A stretch of DNA of 42,806 bases, taken from positions 1 through 42,806 of the forward strand of contig DASVDQ010000091.1 of the NCBI GenBank assembly GCA_036381035.1, read 5' to 3'. A program made the translations under genes and the position numbers. The notes under the pieces are model-generated. The model did no database searches and was not told the DNA's origin. It saw only the letters and a list, made by a program, of their open reading frames with translations. This document shows positions 468-37,390 of the stretch, in pieces. Source of the DNA: Trueperaceae bacterium. Lineage in GTDB: Bacteria > Deinococcota > Deinococci > Deinococcales > Trueperaceae. Numbering within the stretch: the first letter of the stretch is position 1; each line of letters starts with the position of its first letter.

Positions 468-1182
468 CCTCGTCGACCCCCAGGTAGGCCTCGACGACGC
501 GCGGGTCGCTGACCACCTCCCGCGGCGCCCCCCTGGCGATGAGCTCGCCGAAGGCCAGCACGTAGACCTCGTCGCAGAGCTCCGTGACCGCCTGCATGAT
601 GTGCTCGACCATCACGATCGCCATGCCGGTGCGCGCCAGGCCGCGGACGAACTCGATCATGTCGCGCAGCGCCGGCGGGTTCAGGCCGGCCATCAGCTCG
701 TCGAGGAAGAGCACCTGCGGCTCCGTCGCCAGGGCCCGCGCCAGCTCCAGGCGCCGCCGGCGAGCGAGGTTGAGGTCGCCGGCCGGCTGCAGCGCCCTGT
801 CGCCGAGTCCCACGGTGTCGAGGGCGGCGCGCGCTCGACGCTCGGCCTCGCGCCTGTCGGCGGTGCGGAGGAACGCGCTCACCAGCACGTTCTCGAGGAC
901 CGTGAGCGCGGAGAAGGGCCTCTCGACCTGGAAGGTCCTGCCCATGCCGAGGCGCGTGCGCGCGTAGGCGGGCAGGCGCGTGACGCGCCGCCCGAGCAGC
1001 CTGACCTCGCCGCGGGCGCGCACGTGGCCGGTGAGGGCGTTGAAGAGGGTCGTCTTCCCGGCGCCGTTCGGCCCGATGAGCCCGACGATCGCCCCCTGCG
1101 GCACGCTCAGCGACACGCCGTTCACGGCCGTGAGGCCGCCGAACGTGACGGTGACGCGCTCAGCCTCGAGCGCTGCGGGCAT
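460..1182 (-). CDS. livG: Branched-chain amino-acid-type ABC transporter ATPase LivG
   Basis: Second ATPase of the importer, 240 residues, normal length for LivG. Walker A is GPNGAGKTT near residue 37, followed by the LivG hallmark GMGRTFQVERPFSALTVLENV. The signature region is LNLARRRRLELARALA in place of LSGGQ, and Walker B ends LFLDELMAGLNP, with Leu after the catalytic Glu where Pro is usual. A related NLAxRKRLELARALA/DExMAGLNP pattern is, from memory, found in one LivG subfamily, so I regard this as subfamily variation, not decay. The H-loop is IVMVEHIM. It starts at ATG 1182, 23 bp inside livM, with an AGGAGG ribosome-binding site in the livM coding region. Translation is therefore likely coupled. 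Confidence 0.95.
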   Translation of the reverse strand: MPAALEAERVTVTFGGLTAVNGVSLSVPQGAIVGLIGPNGAGKTTLFNALTGHVRARGEVRLLGRRVTRLPAYARTRLGMGRTFQVERPFSALTVLENVLVSAFLRTADRREAERRARAALDTVGLGDRALQPAGDLNLARRRRLELARALATEPQVLFLDELMAGLNPPALRDMIEFVRGLARTGMAIVMVEHIMQAVTELCDEVYVLAFGELIARGAPREVVSDPRVVEAYLGVDEDE

Positions 1183-2119
1183 ACCGCCTCCTCACGAGCC
1201 GCCTGTTCAGCTCGCCCACGAGCCCGTGGGGCGCGAACAGCACGACGACGACGATGAGAGCGCCGTAGATGAGCAGGTTCGCCTCGGCGAACGCGTTCCT
1301 GAACAGCTCGGCCGCCAGGGTGAGCAGGGCCGCGCCGACGAGCGGGCCGAACAGCGTGCCGCGCCCGCCGATGATCGCGACGAGGGCGATGCGCACCGAG
1401 AGGTGCAGCTCGAACATCGGCTGGGGCTGCAGCGCGGACAGCACGACGCCGTAGAGGCAGCCGCCCAGCGCGGTGAGGGCGCCGGAGATCGCGAAGGCCC
1501 GCAGCTTGACGGCCTCGGGGTCCACGCCGGCGGCCTCCGCCGAGGGCTCGTCCTCGCGCACGGCGCGCATCTGGTAGCCGAGGCGCCCGTGCGTGATCAC
1601 CGCCACCACCGCCAGCGCCAGCAGCAGGTACCCGAGCGCGAACCAGAACTCGACGGCGCGGTCGAAGAGGTCGAGCCCGAACGGCTCCTCGAGGTCGAAG
1701 ATGAACAGGCCGACGGCGCCGCCGGTGAGCCCCCGCTGGTTGATCGCCACGAGCCTGAGGATCTCGGCCACGGCGATCGTCGAGAGCACGAAGTAGGAGC
1801 CGCGCAGCCGGAACGTCACCTTGCCCCACAGCAGGGCCAGGGCGGCCGCCAGCGCCATCGCCAGCAGGGCGCCCCACCACGGGGCCAGGTCCCAGCGGTT
1901 GGCCGTGACGCCGATCGTGTAGGCGCCCAGTCCCACGAACGCCGCGTGCCCCAGCGAGGTCTGGCCCGACCAGCCGCCCAGCAGGTCCCAGGCGCTCGCC
2001 CAGCCGGCCAGGAGCATCAGGTTGACGCCCAGGGTGCGGTAGTCGGGCAGGAGCAGGAACCAGGCCAGGCCGAGGAGGGCGACGCCGCCGAGGCGCAGCC
2101 ACGCGCCCCGCGGGCTCAT
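1160..2119 (-). CDS. livM: Branched-chain amino-acid-type ABC permease LivM
   Basis: Integral inner-membrane permease, 319 residues, typical for LivM. It begins MSPRGAWLRLGG and has about nine hydrophobic segments. The family signatures are GGWSGQTSLGHAAFVGLGAY near residue 49, FRLRGSYFVLSTIAVAEI near 104, a GLTGGAVGLF loop near 130, and a C-terminal IGGRGTLFGPLVGAAL segment. It pairs with LivH to form the pore. The ATG at 2119 is the fourth and last copy of a repeated ATGA(G/A)CCCG start motif spaced every 23 bp; the three upstream copies open 8-codon frames that each end exactly at the next start. The SD-like GGGAG 9 nt upstream belongs to the preceding repeat unit. Confidence 0.94.
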   Translation of the reverse strand: MSPRGAWLRLGGVALLGLAWFLLLPDYRTLGVNLMLLAGWASAWDLLGGWSGQTSLGHAAFVGLGAYTIGVTANRWDLAPWWGALLAMALAAALALLWGKVTFRLRGSYFVLSTIAVAEILRLVAINQRGLTGGAVGLFIFDLEEPFGLDLFDRAVEFWFALGYLLLALAVVAVITHGRLGYQMRAVREDEPSAEAAGVDPEAVKLRAFAISGALTALGGCLYGVVLSALQPQPMFELHLSVRIALVAIIGGRGTLFGPLVGAALLTLAAELFRNAFAEANLLIYGALIVVVVLFAPHGLVGELNRRLVRRRYARSARG

Positions 2120-2142
2120 GCGCGACTCCCGTGCGGGCTCAT
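2116..2142 (-). CDS. 8-codon coupled minicistron 3 (MSPHGSRA)
   Basis: Third unit of the repeat. It starts at ATG 2142, encodes MSPHGSRA and ends in a TGA that overlaps the livM ATG at 2119. GGGAG lies upstream. The sequence MSPHG resembles the livM start MSPRG, as expected if livM supplied the duplicated segment. Confidence 0.5.
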   Translation of the reverse strand: MSPHGSRA

Positions 2143-2165
2143 GCTCGGCTCCCGAGCGGGTTCAT
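2139..2165 (-). CDS. 8-codon coupled minicistron 2 (MNPLGSRA)
   Basis: Second unit of the 23-bp repeat. It starts at ATG 2165 within the stop of minicistron 1, encodes MNPLGSRA and ends in a TGA overlapping the ATG at 2142. GGGGGAAGG lies just upstream as a possible ribosome-binding site. Confidence 0.5.
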   Translation of the reverse strand: MNPLGSRA

Positions 2166-2188
2166 GCGGCCTTCCCCCACGGGCTCAT
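2162..2188 (-). CDS. 8-codon coupled minicistron 1 (MSPWGKAA)
   Basis: ATG at 2188 overlaps the livH stop (ATGA). The frame encodes MSPWGKAA and stops with a TGA that overlaps the next repeat ATG at 2165. It is probably translated by ribosomes reinitiating after livH. No function is implied for the peptide itself; this is inference from layout. Confidence 0.5.
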   Translation of the reverse strand: MSPWGKAA

Positions 2189-3066
2189 ACGCGCTTGACC
2201 TCGCGCCCGAACAGGCCCTGGGGCCTGAAGAGGAGCACGAGCAGGAACGCGAACAGGCCGTAGGCGTCGCGGTAGCCGGACGAGAGGTAGGAGGCGCCGA
2301 GGAACTCGACGACGCCCAGCAGGAGACCGCCCCCGATCGCCCCCGGCACGCTGCCGAGGCCGCCCAGGACCGTGACGACGAACGCCTTGAGCGTGTAGCT
2401 CGAGCCGACGGTCGGCACCGCGAACAGCAGCGGGGCGAGGATCACGCCGGCGCACATCGCCAGCGCCATGCCGACTCCGAAGACCAGCGCGTGGACCCGC
2501 CGCGTGTCGATGCCGACGAGCTCCGCGCCCAGGCGGTTCTGGGCGGTGGCGCGCACGGCGCGGCCCACCTCGGTGCGGTTGAGGAGCAGCCACAGCGCCG
2601 CGATCACGACCAGCGTGATGCCGCCGGCGATGAGCTGCGCCACCGGCAGGCGCACGCCGCCCACGCCCACGGTCGCGGTGGCGTAGGGGACGTAGATCGA
2701 GGCCGGCTCGGCGCCGAACAGCAGGAACAGCGCGTTGGCGACGACCAGCGAGAGGCCGAGGGTGGCGAGCAGGGTGCTGTCGCCCGGCGCGTCGACGAGG
2801 CGGGAGAGGGCGATGCGCTGGACGACCCAGCCCGCGATCACGCCGCCCGGCAGGGCGATGGCCAGCGTCAGGTAGGGGTCGAAGCCGAGGTCGCGGAACA
2901 GCGCGATGGCGAGGTACATGCCGATCGCGACGAAGTCGCCATGCGCGAAGTTGATCACCCGCATGACGCCGAAGATCAGTGACAGCCCCACGCCGATGAG
3001 CGCGTAGATGCCCCCGATCAGCAGGCCGCCGGTGACGTTCTGGAGGAGCGGGACGAGCCCTTCCAC
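2185..3066 (-). CDS. livH: Branched-chain amino-acid-type ABC permease LivH
   Basis: Inner-membrane permease of 293 residues, normal for LivH, with about eight hydrophobic segments. The N-terminal signature GGLLIGGIYALIGVGLSLIFG and the following MRVINFAHGDFVAIGMYL are diagnostic; the C-terminal TVLGGLGSVPGAIGGGLLLG matches the conserved LivH end, and FRPQGLFG closes the last helix. The best start is GTG 3066, 33 bp after the binding-protein stop; AGGAGCGGGG lies about 13-20 nt upstream. The stop at 2185-2187 overlaps the first of the repeated ATG codons leading to livM. It is likely co-transcribed from the promoter upstream of the binding-protein gene. Confidence 0.94.
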   Translation of the reverse strand: MEGLVPLLQNVTGGLLIGGIYALIGVGLSLIFGVMRVINFAHGDFVAIGMYLAIALFRDLGFDPYLTLAIALPGGVIAGWVVQRIALSRLVDAPGDSTLLATLGLSLVVANALFLLFGAEPASIYVPYATATVGVGGVRLPVAQLIAGGITLVVIAALWLLLNRTEVGRAVRATAQNRLGAELVGIDTRRVHALVFGVGMALAMCAGVILAPLLFAVPTVGSSYTLKAFVVTVLGGLGSVPGAIGGGLLLGVVEFLGASYLSSGYRDAYGLFAFLLVLLFRPQGLFGREVKRV

Positions 3067-25982: not shown

Positions 25983-26010
25983 CCGGCGCGGTGCGCTGCG
26001 CCGCGGCGCG

Positions 26011-26085
26011 GGGCGGCGCCCGGCGGCCGGCCTCCGCGAGCGGCGGCGCCCGGCGGCCGGCCCCGGCGAGCGGCGGCGCCCGGCG
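26011..26085. repeat. 30-bp G+C-rich tandem repeat, 2.5 units, between two convergent genes
   Basis: Units at 26011-26040, 26041-26070 and half of a third (26071-26085) share GGCGGCGCCCGGCGGCCGGCC. Units 1 and 2 differ at about 4 positions. They lie between the stops of the GH31 gene and the acetyltransferase gene. The palindromic GGCCGGCC core could give hairpins in either direction and serve as a bidirectional terminator. Confidence 0.8.
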
Positions 26086-26876: not shown

Positions 26877-27509
26877 GTGAACGTGACGACGAACGCCTAT
26901 GGCAGACCGCTGAGGCGGAGGCTGTTGGGGGCGCTGATGGCGCCCGCCATCGTGCTGGGGCTCGCCGCCTGCGACACGAACCAGGGCATCAGCGCCGAGG
27001 ACGCCGCCGCCATCAGGGACCAGATACAGCAGGTCGCCGACCGCCTCGACGCGGTCGAGCAGCGCCTCATGGACCTCAGCGCCGAGGGCGAGCAGAACGA
27101 GCCGGCGCAGCTGATCAGCGAGGTGCGCGAGGTGAGCAGCGACGTGGGCGAGGCCCGCAGCCTCCTCGACGAGGTGAGCCAGCAGCTCGAGCCGCCCGCC
27201 GAGGAGACCGCCCCGCCCGCCGGCGACCCGCTCGCCCCGCCCGCCGGCGACCCGTTGGCTCCGCCTCCCGGCAGCGACCCCCTGGCCCCGCCGGCAGACG
27301 ACCCGCTCGCCCCGCCTCCTGGCGGCGCCCCCGCGCCCGACGGCGGCCTCGATGCCCCGGCGCCTGACGGCGGCCTGGACACCCCAGCCCCCGACGGCGG
27401 GCTCGACTCTCCCGCCTCCGACGACGGCGGCGACCTCCCGCAGGGCGAGGACGGCGGCGAGCCGGCCCCGCTGGACGACCCGCTGGTACCGAACGCGCCC
27501 GACCTCTGA
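26877..27509 (+). CDS. Lipoprotein with helical head and two Pro/Asp repeat tracts
   Basis: Unrecognised 210-residue lipoprotein. GTG 26877 follows GGAGGGAGG at good spacing. The signal peptide (RRRLLGALMAPAIVLGLAAC) ends in a LAAC lipobox at Cys31. Residues 38-100 look helical with heptad-like hydrophobic spacing (IRDQIQQVADRLDAVEQRLM and EVREVSSDVGEARSLLDEV), so a coiled coil is likely. Then come two low-complexity tracts: four units near PPAGDPLA, and four 9-residue units near APAPDGGLD. The tail ends LVPNAPDL. The plan, membrane anchor plus coil plus flexible extended rod, suggests an envelope spacer or tether. Upstream in-frame GTG/ATG starts to 26784 would bury the signal peptide and are rejected. 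Confidence 0.75.
   Translation: MNVTTNAYGRPLRRRLLGALMAPAIVLGLAACDTNQGISAEDAAAIRDQIQQVADRLDAVEQRLMDLSAEGEQNEPAQLISEVREVSSDVGEARSLLDEVSQQLEPPAEETAPPAGDPLAPPAGDPLAPPPGSDPLAPPADDPLAPPPGGAPAPDGGLDAPAPDGGLDTPAPDGGLDSPASDDGGDLPQGEDGGEPAPLDDPLVPNAPDL
27210..27434 (+). repeat. Intragenic 24-27-bp tandem repeats coding for Pro/Asp tracts
   Basis: Two adjacent coding repeats: PPAGDPLA-like units in about 100 bp, then APAPDGGLD-like 27-bp units in about 100 bp. Unit number may vary between strains by slippage. Confidence 0.75.
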
Positions 27510-31356: not shown

Positions 31357-33309
31357 ATGCCGACACTGAGGGCCACGGTCGGCCAGGCCGTGGTCAGGTT
31401 CCTGGCCGCCCAGTACAGCGAGCGCGACGGCGCTAGGCGCCGGCTCGTGCCCGGCGTGTGGGCGATCTTCGGCCACGGCAACGTGGCCGGCCTGGGGCAG
31501 GCGCTGGAGGAGCTCGGCGACGAGCTCGAGCTGCCCACGTACCGCCCGCAGAACGAGCAGGCCATGGTGCACGCCGCGGCGGCCTACGCCAAGCACGTCA
31601 ACAGGCTTGCCACGTTCGCCTGCACGGCCTCGATAGGCCCCGGCAGCGCGAACATGCTCACGGCCGCGGCCGGCGCGACGATCAACCGCCTGCCCGTGCT
31701 GCTCCTGCCCTCCGACCTCTTCGCCTCGCGGCGGCCCGACCCGGTGCTGCAGCAGCTCGAGCACCCGCTCGAGCACGACGTCACCGTCAACGACGCGTTC
31801 CGGCCGGTGTCGCGCTTCTTCGCCCGCGTCGACAGGCCGGAGCAGCTCCTCTCGGTGCTGCCCGCCGCGATGCGCGTGCTGACGGACCCGGTCGAGACCG
31901 GCGCCGTGACGATCGCGCTGCCCGAGGACGTGCAGGCCGAGGCGTTCGACTGGCCGGCGGCGTTCTTCGAGGAGCGCGTGTGGCGCGTGCCCCGCCCGGT
32001 GCCGGAGCCGGAGGCCGTGGCCGCGGCGGCCGACGTGCTCCGCGAGGCCGAGCGGCCGCTGATCGTCGCCGGCGGCGGCGTCGTCTACTCCGAGGCCACC
32101 GCCGAGCTGGCCGCCTTCGCGGAGCGCCACGGCGTGCCGGTCGTCGAGACGCAGGCGGGCAAGGGCGCACTGCCCTGGGACCACCCGTGGAACGCCGGCC
32201 CCGTGGGGGCCAACGGCGGCAGCGCCGCGAACGAGCTCGCCGCCGAGGCCGACGTGATCCTCGCGGTGGGCACGCGCCTCTCCGACTTCACGACGGCCTC
32301 GATGACGGCCTTCCGTAGGCCCGGCGTGCGGTTCGTGGGGCTCAACGTCGCCCCCGCCGACGCCTTCAAGGTCGGGGCGGTGCCCCTCGTCGCCGACGCC
32401 AGGCGCGGCCTGGCGGCCCTGTCGCGGTCCCTCGGCGGTTGGCGCGCGCCGGAGCTCTACGCCCTCGAGGTCACGAGCCTCAAGGACGCCTGGCACGGCG
32501 AGGTGGACAAGCTGCGCCGCCTGGGCCCGCCCGTCGCCGCGACCGGCGGCGGGGGCGAGGAGGGCCCCAGCGAGCGCGTCCCCGGCGCGATGATCTCGCA
32601 GGCCGAGGTGATCGGCATCGTCAACGAGGTGTTCGGGGGCCGCGCGACCGCGATCAACGCCGCCGGCAGCATGCCCGGCGACCTCATGAAGCTGTGGCGC
32701 CCCGAGGACCCGAAGGCCTACCACGTCGAGTACGGCTTCTCGTGCATGGGCTACGAGATCCCGGCCGGCATCGGCGTCAAGCTCGCCGAGCCCGAGCGCG
32801 AGGTCGTCGTGTTCATCGGCGACGGCTCTTACCTGATGGCGAACTCCGAGATCGTCACGGCCGTCGCCGAGGGCCTCAGCCTCACCGTGGTCGTCGTCGA
32901 CAACCACGGCTTCCAGTCGATCCACGGGCTGCAGCGCTCGGTCGGCTCGCCGTCGTTCGGGAACGAGCTGAGGGCGCGGGACCGGCGCACGGGCCGGCTG
33001 GACGGGCCCGTGGTGAGCGTCGACTACGCGTCGCACGCCGCCGCCATGGGCGCCGCCGCCGTGGAGGCGCACTCCGCGGCAGACCTGAGGTCGGCGCTGG
33101 AGGCGGCGCGCGCCGCCCAGGGCGTCACCGTGGTCGTCGTGCGCGTGCACCCCGAGCGCCGCGTGGGCTCGTACGGGTCGTGGTGGGACGTGCCCGTGGC
33201 CGAGGTCTCCGGCCGGGCCAGCGTGCGGGCGGCCCGCGAGGCGTACGAGGAGGCCAGGCGGCGCGCCGTGGAGCACCGCGCCGGCGCGACGGCGGAGGTG
33301 GAGGCATGA
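31357..33309 (+). CDS. iolD: 3D-(3,5/4)-trihydroxycyclohexane-1,2-dione hydrolase IolD
   Basis: Thiamine-diphosphate enzyme of inositol catabolism that opens the ring of diketo-inositol to 5-deoxy-glucuronate; 650 residues, expected length. The N-terminal Pyr domain has the cofactor-activating Glu in RPQNEQAMVHAAAAYAK, and the C-terminal domain has the ThDP/Mg motif GDGSYLMANSEIVTAV to VVVDNHGFQSIHGLQRS. FSCMGYEIPAGIGVKLAEP and SYGSWWDVPVAEVS are IolD-like and separate it from acetolactate synthase. It starts at ATG 31357, 42 bp after the MFS gene, and heads the order D-G-E-B-C. It overlaps iolG as ATGA. A GCATATGC palindrome at 31345-31352 lies just before it; a promoter there is possible but not convincing. 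Confidence 0.95.
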   Translation: MPTLRATVGQAVVRFLAAQYSERDGARRRLVPGVWAIFGHGNVAGLGQALEELGDELELPTYRPQNEQAMVHAAAAYAKHVNRLATFACTASIGPGSANMLTAAAGATINRLPVLLLPSDLFASRRPDPVLQQLEHPLEHDVTVNDAFRPVSRFFARVDRPEQLLSVLPAAMRVLTDPVETGAVTIALPEDVQAEAFDWPAAFFEERVWRVPRPVPEPEAVAAAADVLREAERPLIVAGGGVVYSEATAELAAFAERHGVPVVETQAGKGALPWDHPWNAGPVGANGGSAANELAAEADVILAVGTRLSDFTTASMTAFRRPGVRFVGLNVAPADAFKVGAVPLVADARRGLAALSRSLGGWRAPELYALEVTSLKDAWHGEVDKLRRLGPPVAATGGGGEEGPSERVPGAMISQAEVIGIVNEVFGGRATAINAAGSMPGDLMKLWRPEDPKAYHVEYGFSCMGYEIPAGIGVKLAEPEREVVVFIGDGSYLMANSEIVTAVAEGLSLTVVVVDNHGFQSIHGLQRSVGSPSFGNELRARDRRTGRLDGPVVSVDYASHAAAMGAAAVEAHSAADLRSALEAARAAQGVTVVVVRVHPERRVGSYGSWWDVPVAEVSGRASVRAAREAYEEARRRAVEHRAGATAEVEA

Positions 33310-34349
33310 GCGGGCCCGCGGGCCTGGGCGTCGCGGTGGTCGGGGCCGGCCGCATCGGCGCGCTGCACGCCCGCCACCTGCTGGGCGCCGTCGAGGGCGC
33401 CAGGCTGGTCATGGTCGTGGACCCCGACGCCGCCGCCGCGGAGCGGGCGGCCGGGGGCGCGGCCCGCGTGGCGACTGGTATCGAGGAGGCGCTGCACGAC
33501 CCCGCCGTCGACGCCCTGGTGATCGCCTCGCCCACCGACAGGCACTTCGAGCAGCTCCAGGCCGTAGCCGCCGCCGGCAAGCCGGTCTTCTGCGAGAAGC
33601 CCGTGGCGCGCACCCTCGCCGCCACCGAGGCGGCGCTCCGCGCCGTCGTCTCCGCCGGCGTGCCGTTCCAGATCGGCTTCAACAGGCGCTTCGACCCCGC
33701 CTACGCCGAGGTGGCGCGGGCCGTGCGCGCCGGCGAGATCGGCAGGGTCGAGCTGTTCCGCAGCCAGTCCACGGACCCGGCCCCGCCGCCCGAGGAGTAC
33801 GTGGCGGTGTCCGGCGGCTTCTTCCGCGACTCGGTGATCCACGACCTCGACACCGCCCGCTTCGTCGCCGGCGAGGTCACGCACGTCACGGCGCTCGGGC
33901 GCGTGCTCGTGGACGAGCGCTTCGCCAGGCACCGCGACGTGGACACCAGCGTCGTGACCCTCGAGTTCGCCTCGGGCGCGCTGGGCGTGGTCATGAACTC
34001 CCGCCGCGCCGTCTACGGCCACGACCTGCGCGTGGAGGTGCACGGCTCGGGCGGGCGCCTGGTGGCCGAGGACGAGCGCGCCACGAAGGTGTGGCGCTAC
34101 GACGCCAAGGGCATGCACGGCGACTTCCAGAGCCACTTCCTCGTGCGCTTCAAGGAGGCCTACCGGCGCGAGCTGGAGGCGTTCGTGCGCGCGCTCCGCG
34201 AGGGCAGGGAGCCGGAGCCGGGGCCGCGCGACGCGATCGAGTCGCTGCGGCTCGCCGAGGCGGCGCAGGCGAGCCTCGAGTCGGGGGGCCGCGTGGCCGT
34301 GAGCGACGTGGCGAGCGGCGCGCCGGCCGAGGGGAGGGCGACGGCGTGA
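33306..34349 (+). CDS. iolG: Inositol 2-dehydrogenase-like oxidoreductase IolG
   Basis: NAD(P)-dependent dehydrogenase of the Gfo/Idh/MocA family, 347 residues. The Rossmann motif is VGAGRIGALHARHLL (residues 11-25), followed by ASPTDRHFEQL, the catalytic EKPVART (Lys near 98), IGFNRRFDPAYAEV and the active-site DSVIHDLDTARF (Asp, His). These match myo-inositol dehydrogenase, which oxidises inositol to scyllo-inosose at the head of the pathway. The ATG at 33306 overlaps the iolD stop. The 3' end lies in a 62-bp duplication shared with the start of iolE, and the stop overlaps a small coupled frame as GTGA. Confidence 0.93.
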   Translation: MSGPAGLGVAVVGAGRIGALHARHLLGAVEGARLVMVVDPDAAAAERAAGGAARVATGIEEALHDPAVDALVIASPTDRHFEQLQAVAAAGKPVFCEKPVARTLAATEAALRAVVSAGVPFQIGFNRRFDPAYAEVARAVRAGEIGRVELFRSQSTDPAPPPEEYVAVSGGFFRDSVIHDLDTARFVAGEVTHVTALGRVLVDERFARHRDVDTSVVTLEFASGALGVVMNSRRAVYGHDLRVEVHGSGGRLVAEDERATKVWRYDAKGMHGDFQSHFLVRFKEAYRRELEAFVRALREGREPEPGPRDAIESLRLAEAAQASLESGGRVAVSDVASGAPAEGRATA

Positions 34350-34448
34350 CGCTACGGCCCTCCGCTGCGCGAGCCACGAACGCCCTGGCCGAGGGGAGTG
34401 CGAGGGCGTGACCGTCCAGCGCACCGCCATACGCGTGGCGAACGCACC
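34325..34448 (+). repeat. 62-bp tandem duplication across the iolG-iolE junction
   Basis: Units 34325-34386 and 34387-34448 align without gaps at about 44 of 62 positions by hand. The first 26 bases, which include GGCCGAGGGGAG and the GCGTGAC stop/start, match at 24 of 26. The right half of unit 1 encodes VTLRPSAARATNA, recognisably like the IolE N-terminus VTVQRTAIRVANA. The left half of unit 2 encodes LAEGSARA, like the IolG C-terminus PAEGRATA. Confidence 0.85.
34346..34411 (+). CDS. 21-codon minicistron coupling iolG to iolE
   Basis: GTG 34346 overlaps the iolG stop as GTGA. The frame runs 21 codons (it starts VTLRPSAARATN and ends EGSARA) and its TGA overlaps the iolE GTG at 34408, again as GTGA. 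The GAGGGGAGTG before the second start repeats the GAGGGGAGGG before the first. It is a by-product of the 62-bp duplication, likely translated, with no peptide function implied. Confidence 0.55.
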   Translation: MTLRPSAARATNALAEGSARA

Positions 34449-35373
34449 CTGCTCGTGGGGCACGATCGAGGGCTTCGGCCAGAAGACGCCGTGGCACGTG
34501 ATGCTCGACGAGCTGGCCGGCACCGGTTACGTGGGCACCGAGCTGGGCGACCTGGGCTACATGCCCACGGACCCCGGGGTGCTGAGGGCGGAGCTCGACC
34601 GGCGCGGCCTGGTGATGCTGGGTGGCTTCGAAGGCGTGCCGCTGCGCCGGCCCGGGGTGGTAGCCGAGCGGAGGGAGCGCCTACTGGCGGTGGCCCGCCA
34701 CCTCGCCGCACTCGCCGATGAGGGGCGCGCCGGCCGTGCTCCGTACTTCATCCTCGCCGACGAGACGCGGGGGGACCCGGTGAGGACGGCGAAAGCCGGG
34801 CGCATCTCGGCAGGAGACGCGCTGCCGCCCGAGGAGTTCGCCGTCTTCGTGCGCAACGCCCAGGAGATCGCGCGGCTGGTGGCCGGCGAGACGGGCCTCA
34901 GGACGCTCTTCCACCACCACTGCGCGGCGTTCGTCGAGACGCCGGAGGAGATCGCCCGGTTCCTCGACGCCACCGAGCCGGGGCTCATCGACCTGGTGTT
35001 CGACACCGGCCACTACACGTACGGCTGCGGCGTGCCGGACGAGCCGGCCGAGCCCCCGGGCAGCGGGCGCCTGGCCCTCGAAGGGCTGAGGCGCTTCTGG
35101 GACCGCGTGCCTTACGTGCACCTCAAGGACTGCCACCCGGGCGTGGCGGCGCGCTGCCGGGCCGAGGGTCTCGACTACACGCAGGCGATCGCCGCCGGCG
35201 TCTTCTGCGAGCTCGGACGGGGCAGCGTGGACCTGCGGGGCATCGTGGCCTTCCTGCGCGAGCGGGGCTACGACGACTGGTTGACGGTGGAGCAGGACGT
35301 GATCCCCGGCATGGGCACGCCGCGGGAGAGCGCCGCGCGCAACCGCGAGGCGCTGCGAGGCCTGGGGCTGTGA
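34408..35373 (+). CDS. iolE: Inosose dehydratase IolE
   Basis: TIM-barrel enzyme of the xylose isomerase-like family, 321 residues, dehydrating scyllo-inosose to the dione substrate of IolD. Signatures: VANAPCSWGTIEGFGQK near residue 10, TGYVGTELGDLGYMP, LFHHHCAAFVETPEEI, VFDTGHYTYGCG, HLKDCHP and the final VEQDVIPG. Metal ligands are likely Glu in GTELG, Asp in VFDTGH, His in HLKD and Glu in VEQD. The GTG at 34408 overlaps the stop of the upstream minicistron. It overlaps iolB as GTGA. Confidence 0.94.
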   Translation: MTVQRTAIRVANAPCSWGTIEGFGQKTPWHVMLDELAGTGYVGTELGDLGYMPTDPGVLRAELDRRGLVMLGGFEGVPLRRPGVVAERRERLLAVARHLAALADEGRAGRAPYFILADETRGDPVRTAKAGRISAGDALPPEEFAVFVRNAQEIARLVAGETGLRTLFHHHCAAFVETPEEIARFLDATEPGLIDLVFDTGHYTYGCGVPDEPAEPPGSGRLALEGLRRFWDRVPYVHLKDCHPGVAARCRAEGLDYTQAIAAGVFCELGRGSVDLRGIVAFLRERGYDDWLTVEQDVIPGMGTPRESAARNREALRGLGL

Positions 35374-36266
35374 CGGGCTCGGGCGGCGACGACCTCGCGA
35401 CCGGCGCCGAGCTCGCCCGCGGTCGCCACGTGGCGCGCCGCGCGCCGGGGAGCGGCGGCGACGTCGTCGTCACGCCGGAGACGGCCGGCTGGGAGCACCT
35501 CTGGTTCGAGGTGCGGACGCTCCAGCCGGGCCAGCGCTTCGAGCACGTCGAGGAGGGGCGGGAGACCTGCGTGGTCGTCCTGTCCGGCTCGGGCGTGCTG
35601 GAGCTCAACGGCGAGGAGAAGAGGTTCGCGGGCCGCGCCAGCCCCTTCGCGGGGCTCCCGCACGCCCTCTACGCGCCGCCGCGGACGCCCTGCGGCGTGC
35701 GCGCCGAGACCGCGGTCGAGCTGGGCATCGGCGGCGCCGCGGCGTCCGGCCGCCTGCCGCCGCGGTTCATCGGCCCCGGCGACGTGAAGGTGGAGATGCG
35801 CGGCGGCCACAACGCCCTGCGGCAGATCACCCACGTGCTCGACCCCGGCGACGCCGAGCGCCTGCTGTGCGTCGAGGTCTACACGCCGTCCGGGAACTGG
35901 TCGAGCTACCCGCCCCACCGCCACGACGAGCACGTGCCCGGCGTGGAGGTGGACCTCGACGAGGTCTACCACTACCGCATCGCGCCGCCGGGCGGCTTCG
36001 CGCTGCAGCGCCTCTACGACGACGCCCGCGACCTCGACGACGTCGTCGTCGTGAGGGACGGCGACACCGTGCTGGTGCGGCGCGGCTACCACCCCGTCGT
36101 GATGGCGCCCGGCTTCGACGGCTACTACCTGAACTTCCTCGCCGGCGAGGAGCCGAGCTGGGTGGCGCGCGACGAGCCAGACCTGGCCTGGGTGCGGGGC
36201 AGCTGGGAGGGCAGGGACGACCGCCTGCGCCTGCCGCTCGGGCCGCCGCAGCGGGAGGAGCGTTGA
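35370..36266 (+). CDS. iolB: 5-deoxy-glucuronate isomerase IolB
   Basis: Bicupin isomerase of 298 residues converting 5-deoxy-glucuronate to 5-dehydro-2-deoxy-gluconate. The second cupin holds the metal site YPPHRHDEHVPGVEVDLDEV followed by YHYR (His, His, Glu, and a later His in GYHPVVMAPG). The family pattern WSSYPPHRHD and PGFDGYYLNFLAG is intact. The GTG start at 35370 sits in the iolE stop. Its last codons and the first of iolC share a TTGA overlap, and GCGGGAGGAGCGTTGACG at this junction is repeated 48 bp downstream. Confidence 0.94.
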   Translation: MTGSGGDDLATGAELARGRHVARRAPGSGGDVVVTPETAGWEHLWFEVRTLQPGQRFEHVEEGRETCVVVLSGSGVLELNGEEKRFAGRASPFAGLPHALYAPPRTPCGVRAETAVELGIGGAAASGRLPPRFIGPGDVKVEMRGGHNALRQITHVLDPGDAERLLCVEVYTPSGNWSSYPPHRHDEHVPGVEVDLDEVYHYRIAPPGGFALQRLYDDARDLDDVVVVRDGDTVLVRRGYHPVVMAPGFDGYYLNFLAGEEPSWVARDEPDLAWVRGSWEGRDDRLRLPLGPPQREER

Positions 36267-36316
36267 CGAACGCGGCGGGCCGTGGGCCGGACGCCCCGGC
36301 GGGAGGAGCGTCGACG
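36251..36316 (+). repeat. 48-bp-spaced duplication of the iolB-iolC ribosome-binding site and start
   Basis: GCGGGAGGAGCGTTGACG at 36251-36268 recurs as GCGGGAGGAGCGTCGACG at 36299-36316, one mismatch, which changes the TTG start to TCG. The 48-bp step keeps frame, so the second copy is now coding sequence in the head of IolC. The rest of the unit is no longer clearly similar. Confidence 0.7.
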
Positions 36317-37390
36317 GCCCCTGGGAGCGGCGCGTCGGCCGCCACGGAGCCTCGGCGGTCGTCGGGCGCCGCGGGCGCGGCGCCGCGCTTCGACCTGCTG
36401 GCGATGGGGCGCTCGTCGATCGACCTCTACGCCAACGACATCGGCGCGGCGTTCGAGGACGTCACGTCCTTCGCCGCCTACGTGGGCGGCAGCCCGCTGA
36501 ACATCGCCGTGGGGGCGCGACGCCTCGGACTGAGGACGGCGCTGCTGACGGCCGTGGGCGACGACAAGGTCGGCGAGTTCATCCTGGCGTTCCTGCGCCG
36601 CGAGGGCGTCGACACGTCGTGGGTGCCGGTCAAGCCGGGGCGGCGCAGCAGCGCCGTGGTGCTCGGCATCGAGCCGCCGGACAGGTTCCCGCTCGTCTAC
36701 TACCGCGACAACGCCGCCGACTTCGCCCTCGACATCGACGACGTCCTGTCAGCGCCCGTGGCCGACGCGGCCGCCCTCGAGGTGTCCGGCACCGGGCTCG
36801 CCGTCGAGCCGTCGCGCAGCGCGACGTTCCGGGCCGTGGAGCTGGCGCGGGCCGGCGGGCGGACCGTCTACCTCGACCTCGACTTCCGCGCCGACCAGTG
36901 GCACGACCTCCGCGCCTACGGCGTCACCGTGCGGGCGCTGCTGCCGCTCGTGGACGTCGTCATCGGCACCGAGGAGGAGTTCAGGGCCGCCGCACTCGAG
37001 TCGCAGGCCGACGTGGTGGTGGCGCACCAGCAGGTGTCGGCGCCGGCGGTGAGGGGCGACCTCGGCGCGGCCATGGCGCGGCTGCGCGAGCGCGCGCCGA
37101 GCGCGACGCTGGTCGTGAAGCGCGGCGCGCGCGGGGCGACCGTCCACCTGGCCGACGGCACGGAGCTGGACGCGCCCGGCTTCCCCGTGGAGGTCGTGAA
37201 CGTCCTCGGCGCCGGCGACGCGTTCGCCGCCGGGCTGATCTACGGGCGCGCCCGGGGGTGGGGCTGGCGCGAGAGCGCGCGCCTGGGCAACGCCTGCGGG
37301 GCCATAGTCGTCACGCGTCACGGCTGCGCGAACTTCATGGCCACGTTGGACGAGGCGCTGGCCCTGGCCGACGCGCACGGCGGTCTGTGA
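36263..37390 (+). CDS. iolC: 5-dehydro-2-deoxygluconokinase IolC, with low-complexity N-terminal extension
   Basis: PfkB-family sugar kinase, 375 residues from TTG 36263, which overlaps the iolB stop as TTGA behind GGGAGGAG. It phosphorylates 5-dehydro-2-deoxygluconate in the fifth step of the pathway. The core starts at about residue 42 (RFDLLAMGRSSIDLYANDIG), with YVGGSPLNIAVGARRLGL, GDDKVGEFI and LDLDFRADQWHDL. The anion hole and catalytic base appear in VLGAGDAFAAGLIYG. The 41-residue Ala/Gly/Pro/Ser-rich head is not part of the fold and seems to have arisen by an in-frame duplication of the junction. The iolJ aldolase and iolA dehydrogenase needed for the last steps are not in the window. 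Confidence 0.92.
   Translation: MTNAAGRGPDAPAGGASTAPGSGASAATEPRRSSGAAGAAPRFDLLAMGRSSIDLYANDIGAAFEDVTSFAAYVGGSPLNIAVGARRLGLRTALLTAVGDDKVGEFILAFLRREGVDTSWVPVKPGRRSSAVVLGIEPPDRFPLVYYRDNAADFALDIDDVLSAPVADAAALEVSGTGLAVEPSRSATFRAVELARAGGRTVYLDLDFRADQWHDLRAYGVTVRALLPLVDVVIGTEEEFRAAALESQADVVVAHQQVSAPAVRGDLGAAMARLRERAPSATLVVKRGARGATVHLADGTELDAPGFPVEVVNVLGAGDAFAAGLIYGRARGWGWRESARLGNACGAIVVTRHGCANFMATLDEALALADAHGGL

Follow-up and report, generated by a model that had tools for sequence, protein, structure and literature searches.

A 62-bp tandem duplication at the iolG-iolE junction of a Trueperaceae genome forms a doubly GTGA-linked mini-ORF, a candidate relay for translational coupling

In NTGA termination-reinitiation coupling, operon genes are joined by 4-nt stop-start overlaps (PMC6728339, PMC10666635). 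Such coupling needs near-contact, and a gap of about 20 nt nearly abolishes reinitiation in E. coli and Haloferax (PMC10666635). The mycobacterial interspersed repetitive units (MIRUs) are tandem intergenic units with an internal ORF, coupled at -4 nt to the gene that flanks it (reviewed in PMC12548453), and they are the stated natural precedent for a relay (PMC12548453). The MIRU units at senX3-regX3 measure 77 and 53 bp (PMC4213456); both lengths are of the form 3n+2. To hand ribosomes on to the following gene, uORFs, synthetic nfORFs and bicistronic designs also use a brief frame of meaningless sequence that has an SD inside it just ahead of the stop and that adjoins or overlaps the next start (PMC12548453, PMC13255528).

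The junction described here lies in a window of 42,806 nt (the whole stretch of DNA analysed), which is contig 91 of a 3.43 Mb assembly from an uncultured member of the Trueperaceae. The genome is placed in a genus of its own, and its nearest public relatives are Trueperaceae MAGs. The inositol 2-dehydrogenase gene iolG (33306..34349, + strand; TIGR04380, 388 bits against a cutoff of 355) follows iolD (31357-33309) in the operon and terminates in GTGA. Its final ~10 codons (GAPAEGRATA) exceed the C-terminus of the relatives' proteins, which stop near residue 337 or have other tails. Downstream is a gene for an iolE-like myo-inosose-2 dehydratase of 321 aa (34408..35373, +; TIGR04379, PF01261). 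The protein matches TIGR04379 with 150.7 bits (E=6e-44) and does not reach the NCBIfam curated iolE cutoff of 290; the name rests on the best family and on the position in the operon. It is followed by iolB (35370-36266) and by a putative iolC frame (36404-37390), assigned by its place in the operon.

The order at the junction is iolG, GTGA, 21 codons, GTGA, iolE. The mini-ORF, VTLRPSAARATNALAEGSARA, extends from GTG34346 to TGA34411 (34346..34411, +); its start overlaps the iolG stop in the GTGA at 34346..34349 (+) and its stop overlaps the iolE start in the GTGA at 34408..34411 (+). As a sequence-only reading of this DNA had claimed, the frame is linked to both neighbours and is a chimera, with an IolE-like start (VTLRPSAARATNA, similar to IolE VTVQRTAIRVANA at 6/13 residues) and an IolG-like end (NALAEGSARA, similar to the IolG tail GAPAEGRATA at 6/10). 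The overlaps at the two ends fit the architecture of NTGA coupling. The locus differs from ordinary coupled genes in that a mini-ORF replaces the direct overlap, and translation of iolE is predicted to depend on that of its upstream neighbour. It resembles a MIRU in having an internal ORF joined to its neighbours by -4 nt overlaps, at 34346 and 34408, and by analogy would work like one. It is nevertheless not a MIRU, because the 62-bp unit from which it is built is local: MIRUs have been described as interspersed, mobile elements, whereas this unit is junction-derived and not dispersed. A tandem copy derived from the junction is also a simpler origin than a mobile insertion at a start codon. 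Unlike the uORFs and designed frames, the mini-ORF is natural and intercistronic, and would itself receive its ribosomes by coupling to the gene upstream.

The junction contains two adjacent copies of the 62-bp unit. Copy 1 (34319..34380, +) comprises the iolG tail, GTGA and the start of the mini-ORF; copy 2 (34381..34442, +) comprises the end of the mini-ORF, GTGA and the start of iolE. They are identical at 44/62 positions at a spacing of 62 nt with no indels, and any register from 34319 to 34325 fits. The probability of at least 44/62 matches is ~7e-12 at the background identity of 0.287. Among adjacent equal-unit repeats in the window, this one scores highest (z 7.4; the runner-up, at 6.7, is a low-complexity coding array), and its local score of 29 compares with a maximum of 24 across six codon-shuffled windows. 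The duplication and its ~71% identity, both noted earlier from the letters, were thus reproduced. A 124-nt query matched only itself in the genome (E 2e-59), the next match being 25 nt long (E 0.002). A dispersed element was rejected, there being no other convincing copy of the unit in the genome.

Identity between the copies is uneven. A 26-nt core, GGCCGAGGGGAGnGCGAnGGCGTGAC, consisting of SD, spacer and GTGAC, is conserved at 24/26 positions and the remainder at 20/36 (Fisher p 0.0017 for the contrast, with core boundaries set post hoc after viewing the alignment). The core of copy 1 (34325..34350, +) has the SD-like sequence GAGGGGAGGG, and that of copy 2 (34387..34412, +), the iolE initiation region, has GAGGGGAG; predicted SD pairing is -11.7 and -10.5 kcal/mol, respectively, against a median of -7.15 across 158 directly linked starts. 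The earlier assertion that the copy had been kept in register is best worded as a suggestion, drawn from the lack of indels in 62 nt despite 18 substitutions and from the lesser divergence of the SD/GTGA core. The modest identity outside the core would also suit an origin without a 62-bp duplication, either by copying of the initiation core alone or by convergence of two SD-GTGA sites around an unrelated spacer. We regard such an origin as improbable. Among 12,403 pairs of unrelated directly linked initiation cores of the window genome, no more than 20/26 positions were shared, a level at which convergence fails to account for the core. Core-only copying is opposed by the right flank of the unit, which taken alone is identical at 16/30 positions against a mean of 9 in a codon-position-preserving shuffle (P=0.003), so that duplication of the whole unit is better supported.

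We compared the junction with eleven loci in which iolG is followed by iolE, all from genera other than that of the window genome. The two genes are directly joined by NTGA in 10 of these 11 syntenic relatives. Nothing has been added in four (G013, G002, G011, G035), IolG tails have been added in three (G010, G034, G062), and 21 codons have been added to the front of IolE in three, all of genus g16 (G031, G023, G015). In the eleventh, G012, a ~118-codon ORF separates iolG from iolE and is linked to them by GTGA and ATGA, at a link spacing of 356 nt (L018 / L079); this ORF is apparently unrelated to iol genes. An NTGA link into iolE is therefore present at 12/12 loci counting the window, and the check on relatives proposed in the sequence-only reading came out in favour of conservation, with the link in 11/11. 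Most of these loci, by contrast, lack a link at the adjacent iolE-iolB junction. The 62-bp repeat was absent from all eleven relatives, and no peptide homologous to the mini-ORF product was found at their junctions. Since ten of the relatives are directly linked and none of the eleven has the repeat, the repeat is derived and unique to the window lineage. At these loci the junction has gained sequence repeatedly, and NTGA entry into iolE has persisted.

The sequence-only reading had counted relatives with equal spacing and no repeat similarity against the duplication. This is partly the case: three g16 species have a 63-nt spacer lacking repeat similarity, but there the spacer extends the N-terminus of IolE in frame. 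It is absent from a fourth g16 species and therefore looks like an independent insertion. Homology between the window spacer and the g16 extension was rejected, as similarity was no better than in shuffles. The g16 extension (L002:1425-1535, L003 on the reverse strand, and L004:1425-1535) folds into two strong tandem hairpins (z about -7). The probable iolE ATG lies within the second, and both arms of the stem carry differences between G031 and G015. These hairpins are a possible coupling-dependent translational lock.

In a 4-nt NTGA overlap, the start codon precedes the stop by one base. In a 3n+2 duplication across NTGA, the first start reads into the second stop, while a 3n duplication lengthens the downstream protein and a 3n+1 duplication loses the simple link. 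The explanation that we consider probable overall begins with an ancestral NTGA link and ends with a relay whose peptide has no function. Ancestrally, iolG and iolE would have shared a 4-nt NTGA stop-start overlap. In the window lineage, a 62-bp segment across the junction (iolG tail, SD, GTGA and iolE head) would then have been duplicated in tandem. As 62 is 3n+2, translation from the first GTG would run to the TGA within the second GTGA, so the insert would become a frame of 21 codons with coupling at each end and leave the link unbroken. On finishing iolG, a ribosome would re-initiate first at the mini-ORF and next at iolE. A bare 58-nt gap would break coupling, and a mini-ORF with NTGA at each end would restore it. 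We infer that the mini-ORF is translated, conveys ribosomes to iolE and has been retained by selection for that role. The length of 62 bp had been singled out earlier as 2 modulo 3. The value is correct, but a single mini-ORF with NTGA at both ends always has a 3n+2 spacing, so at one site the length is no evidence separate from the double GTGA link. A preference for 3n+2 is testable across many sites.

The mini-ORF scores -0.29 per codon, compared with 0.59 for genes, and an ordinary small gene was rejected because this score is not gene-like; the act of translation, and not the peptide, is thus the likely function. A 21-codon product with a role of its own, as a sensing attenuation uORF or as a small protein, would be in keeping with the strong SD on the mini-ORF. 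We consider it highly improbable, as the codon signature is absent, relatives lack a homologous junction peptide, folding of the window spacer is no better than that of shuffles (z-scores 0.06 and 0.16) and the junction has no Rfam match. Attenuation by a leader peptide was rejected, there being neither conservation of the peptide at the junction in relatives nor folding above shuffles. A search at the junction found no promoter or terminator.

A more serious alternative, although an unlikely one, accepts the duplication and denies the relay: iolE would be initiated independently, from the copy 2 SD, and the original GTGA would have left the mini-ORF and its links behind as relics. The iolE SD is stronger than that of the median linked start, and with a strong SD of its own iolE may not need coupling. 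The codons of the mini-ORF are not gene-like, and open frames come cheaply in GC-rich DNA, where stops are rare. On the other hand, the upstream core SD and GTGA are undecayed while the flanks have decayed, and the link is conserved across genera. The relay is further favoured over a neutral leftover by a genome-wide excess of relay frames that occurs after NTGA stops only.

This excess was found in a sample of 1.67 Mb (49%) of the window genome, made up of non-random stretches, with genes called by a simple home-made codon-score caller. The sample held 907 same-strand junctions, 278 with a direct NTGA link and 60 bridged by mini-ORF relays. For gaps of 11-150 nt with no direct link, we classified the reading frame in which the next gene stands with respect to the upstream stop, a measure independent of the start chosen; r2 is the frame reachable by a single mini-ORF and r1 the alternative. 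The r0/r1/r2 counts were 15/17/57 after NTGA stops and 84/81/76 after CTGA, TAG or TAA stops. The difference in r2 versus r1 between NTGA and other stops was significant (Fisher p=3e-5), also without the window (p=1.6e-4) and with strong genes only (p=3e-5). Complete relays account for 42/57 of the r2 junctions after NTGA stops, and in 34/57 the called start is an NTGA quartet, compared with ~31% in controls. Where both copies of a junction repeat carry NTGA, the spacing is 3n+2 in 7/10 cases (P=0.02), or in 8/10 when a 37-bp pair is counted as a 74-nt relay. Across 45 relay mini-ORFs genome-wide the codon score was -0.41 in frame, against -0.44 and -0.36 out of frame; the lack of a codon signature argues against missed small genes.

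Two other measures were set aside. At low thresholds, repeats were no more frequent at junctions than in in-gene controls, where nearly all are 3n, and a relay count of 9 versus 4.9 in shuffled gaps rested on a weak null and was superseded by the frame-class test. In the sister genome G015 the relay-frame excess was not seen in a small sample (r0/r1/r2 = 1/11/7). A mutational bias to 1-nt deletions or to 3n+2 duplications could also favour the r2 class. We propose tentatively that operon junctions of the window genome expand by tandem duplication and insertion subject to a reading-frame filter, such that an insert behind an NTGA stop is retained when its length allows one or more coupled mini-ORFs to relay ribosomes. 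Such relays would amount to a MIRU analogue that arises locally and is widespread, with perhaps about a hundred per genome. If this holds, selection for translational coupling leaves a natural mark that sequence alone reveals, in the form of mini-ORF relays filtered by frame, and these relays show how operons tolerate growing intergenic gaps without mobile elements. The frame class after NTGA versus other stops would then be a simple test of coupling for any genome.

A second, independent case, to which the earlier reading had alluded, is present in the same window and also favours the relay. A 23-bp repeat (2110..2188, - strand) between the genes at 2185-3066(-) and 1160-2119(-), named livH-like and livM-like from sequence character and gene order, forms three ATGA-linked 8-codon frames, MSPWGKAA, MNPLGSRA and MSPHGSRA, with four ATGA motifs spaced 23 nt apart (2188-2119, minus). 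The livH-livM junction of five relatives has a single direct ATGA. Elsewhere in the genome, 37-bp repeats at 84/97 form a 74-nt relay (L184:8836), two linked frames measure 38 nt each (L201:8839), and further cases measure 35 nt (L193:9207) and 59 nt (L094:12302). At the first three of these loci the junction repeats yield GTGA-linked mini-ORFs, for example VNAKASRRREVRP and VNAAPSRRREARP in series.

The iolB-iolC junction (window 36241-36337) carries a 24/48-bp repeat, 48 being 3n. iolC may begin at TTG36263, in a TTGA that overlaps the iolB stop, and the apparent ~45-residue low-complexity N-terminal extension holds the 48-bp repeat. Low-complexity tandem arrays also occur in the window at 27191-27480 and 25984-26085; they comprise coding repeats of 24/27/51 bp, and GC-rich repeats of 30 bp that lie in a short gap.
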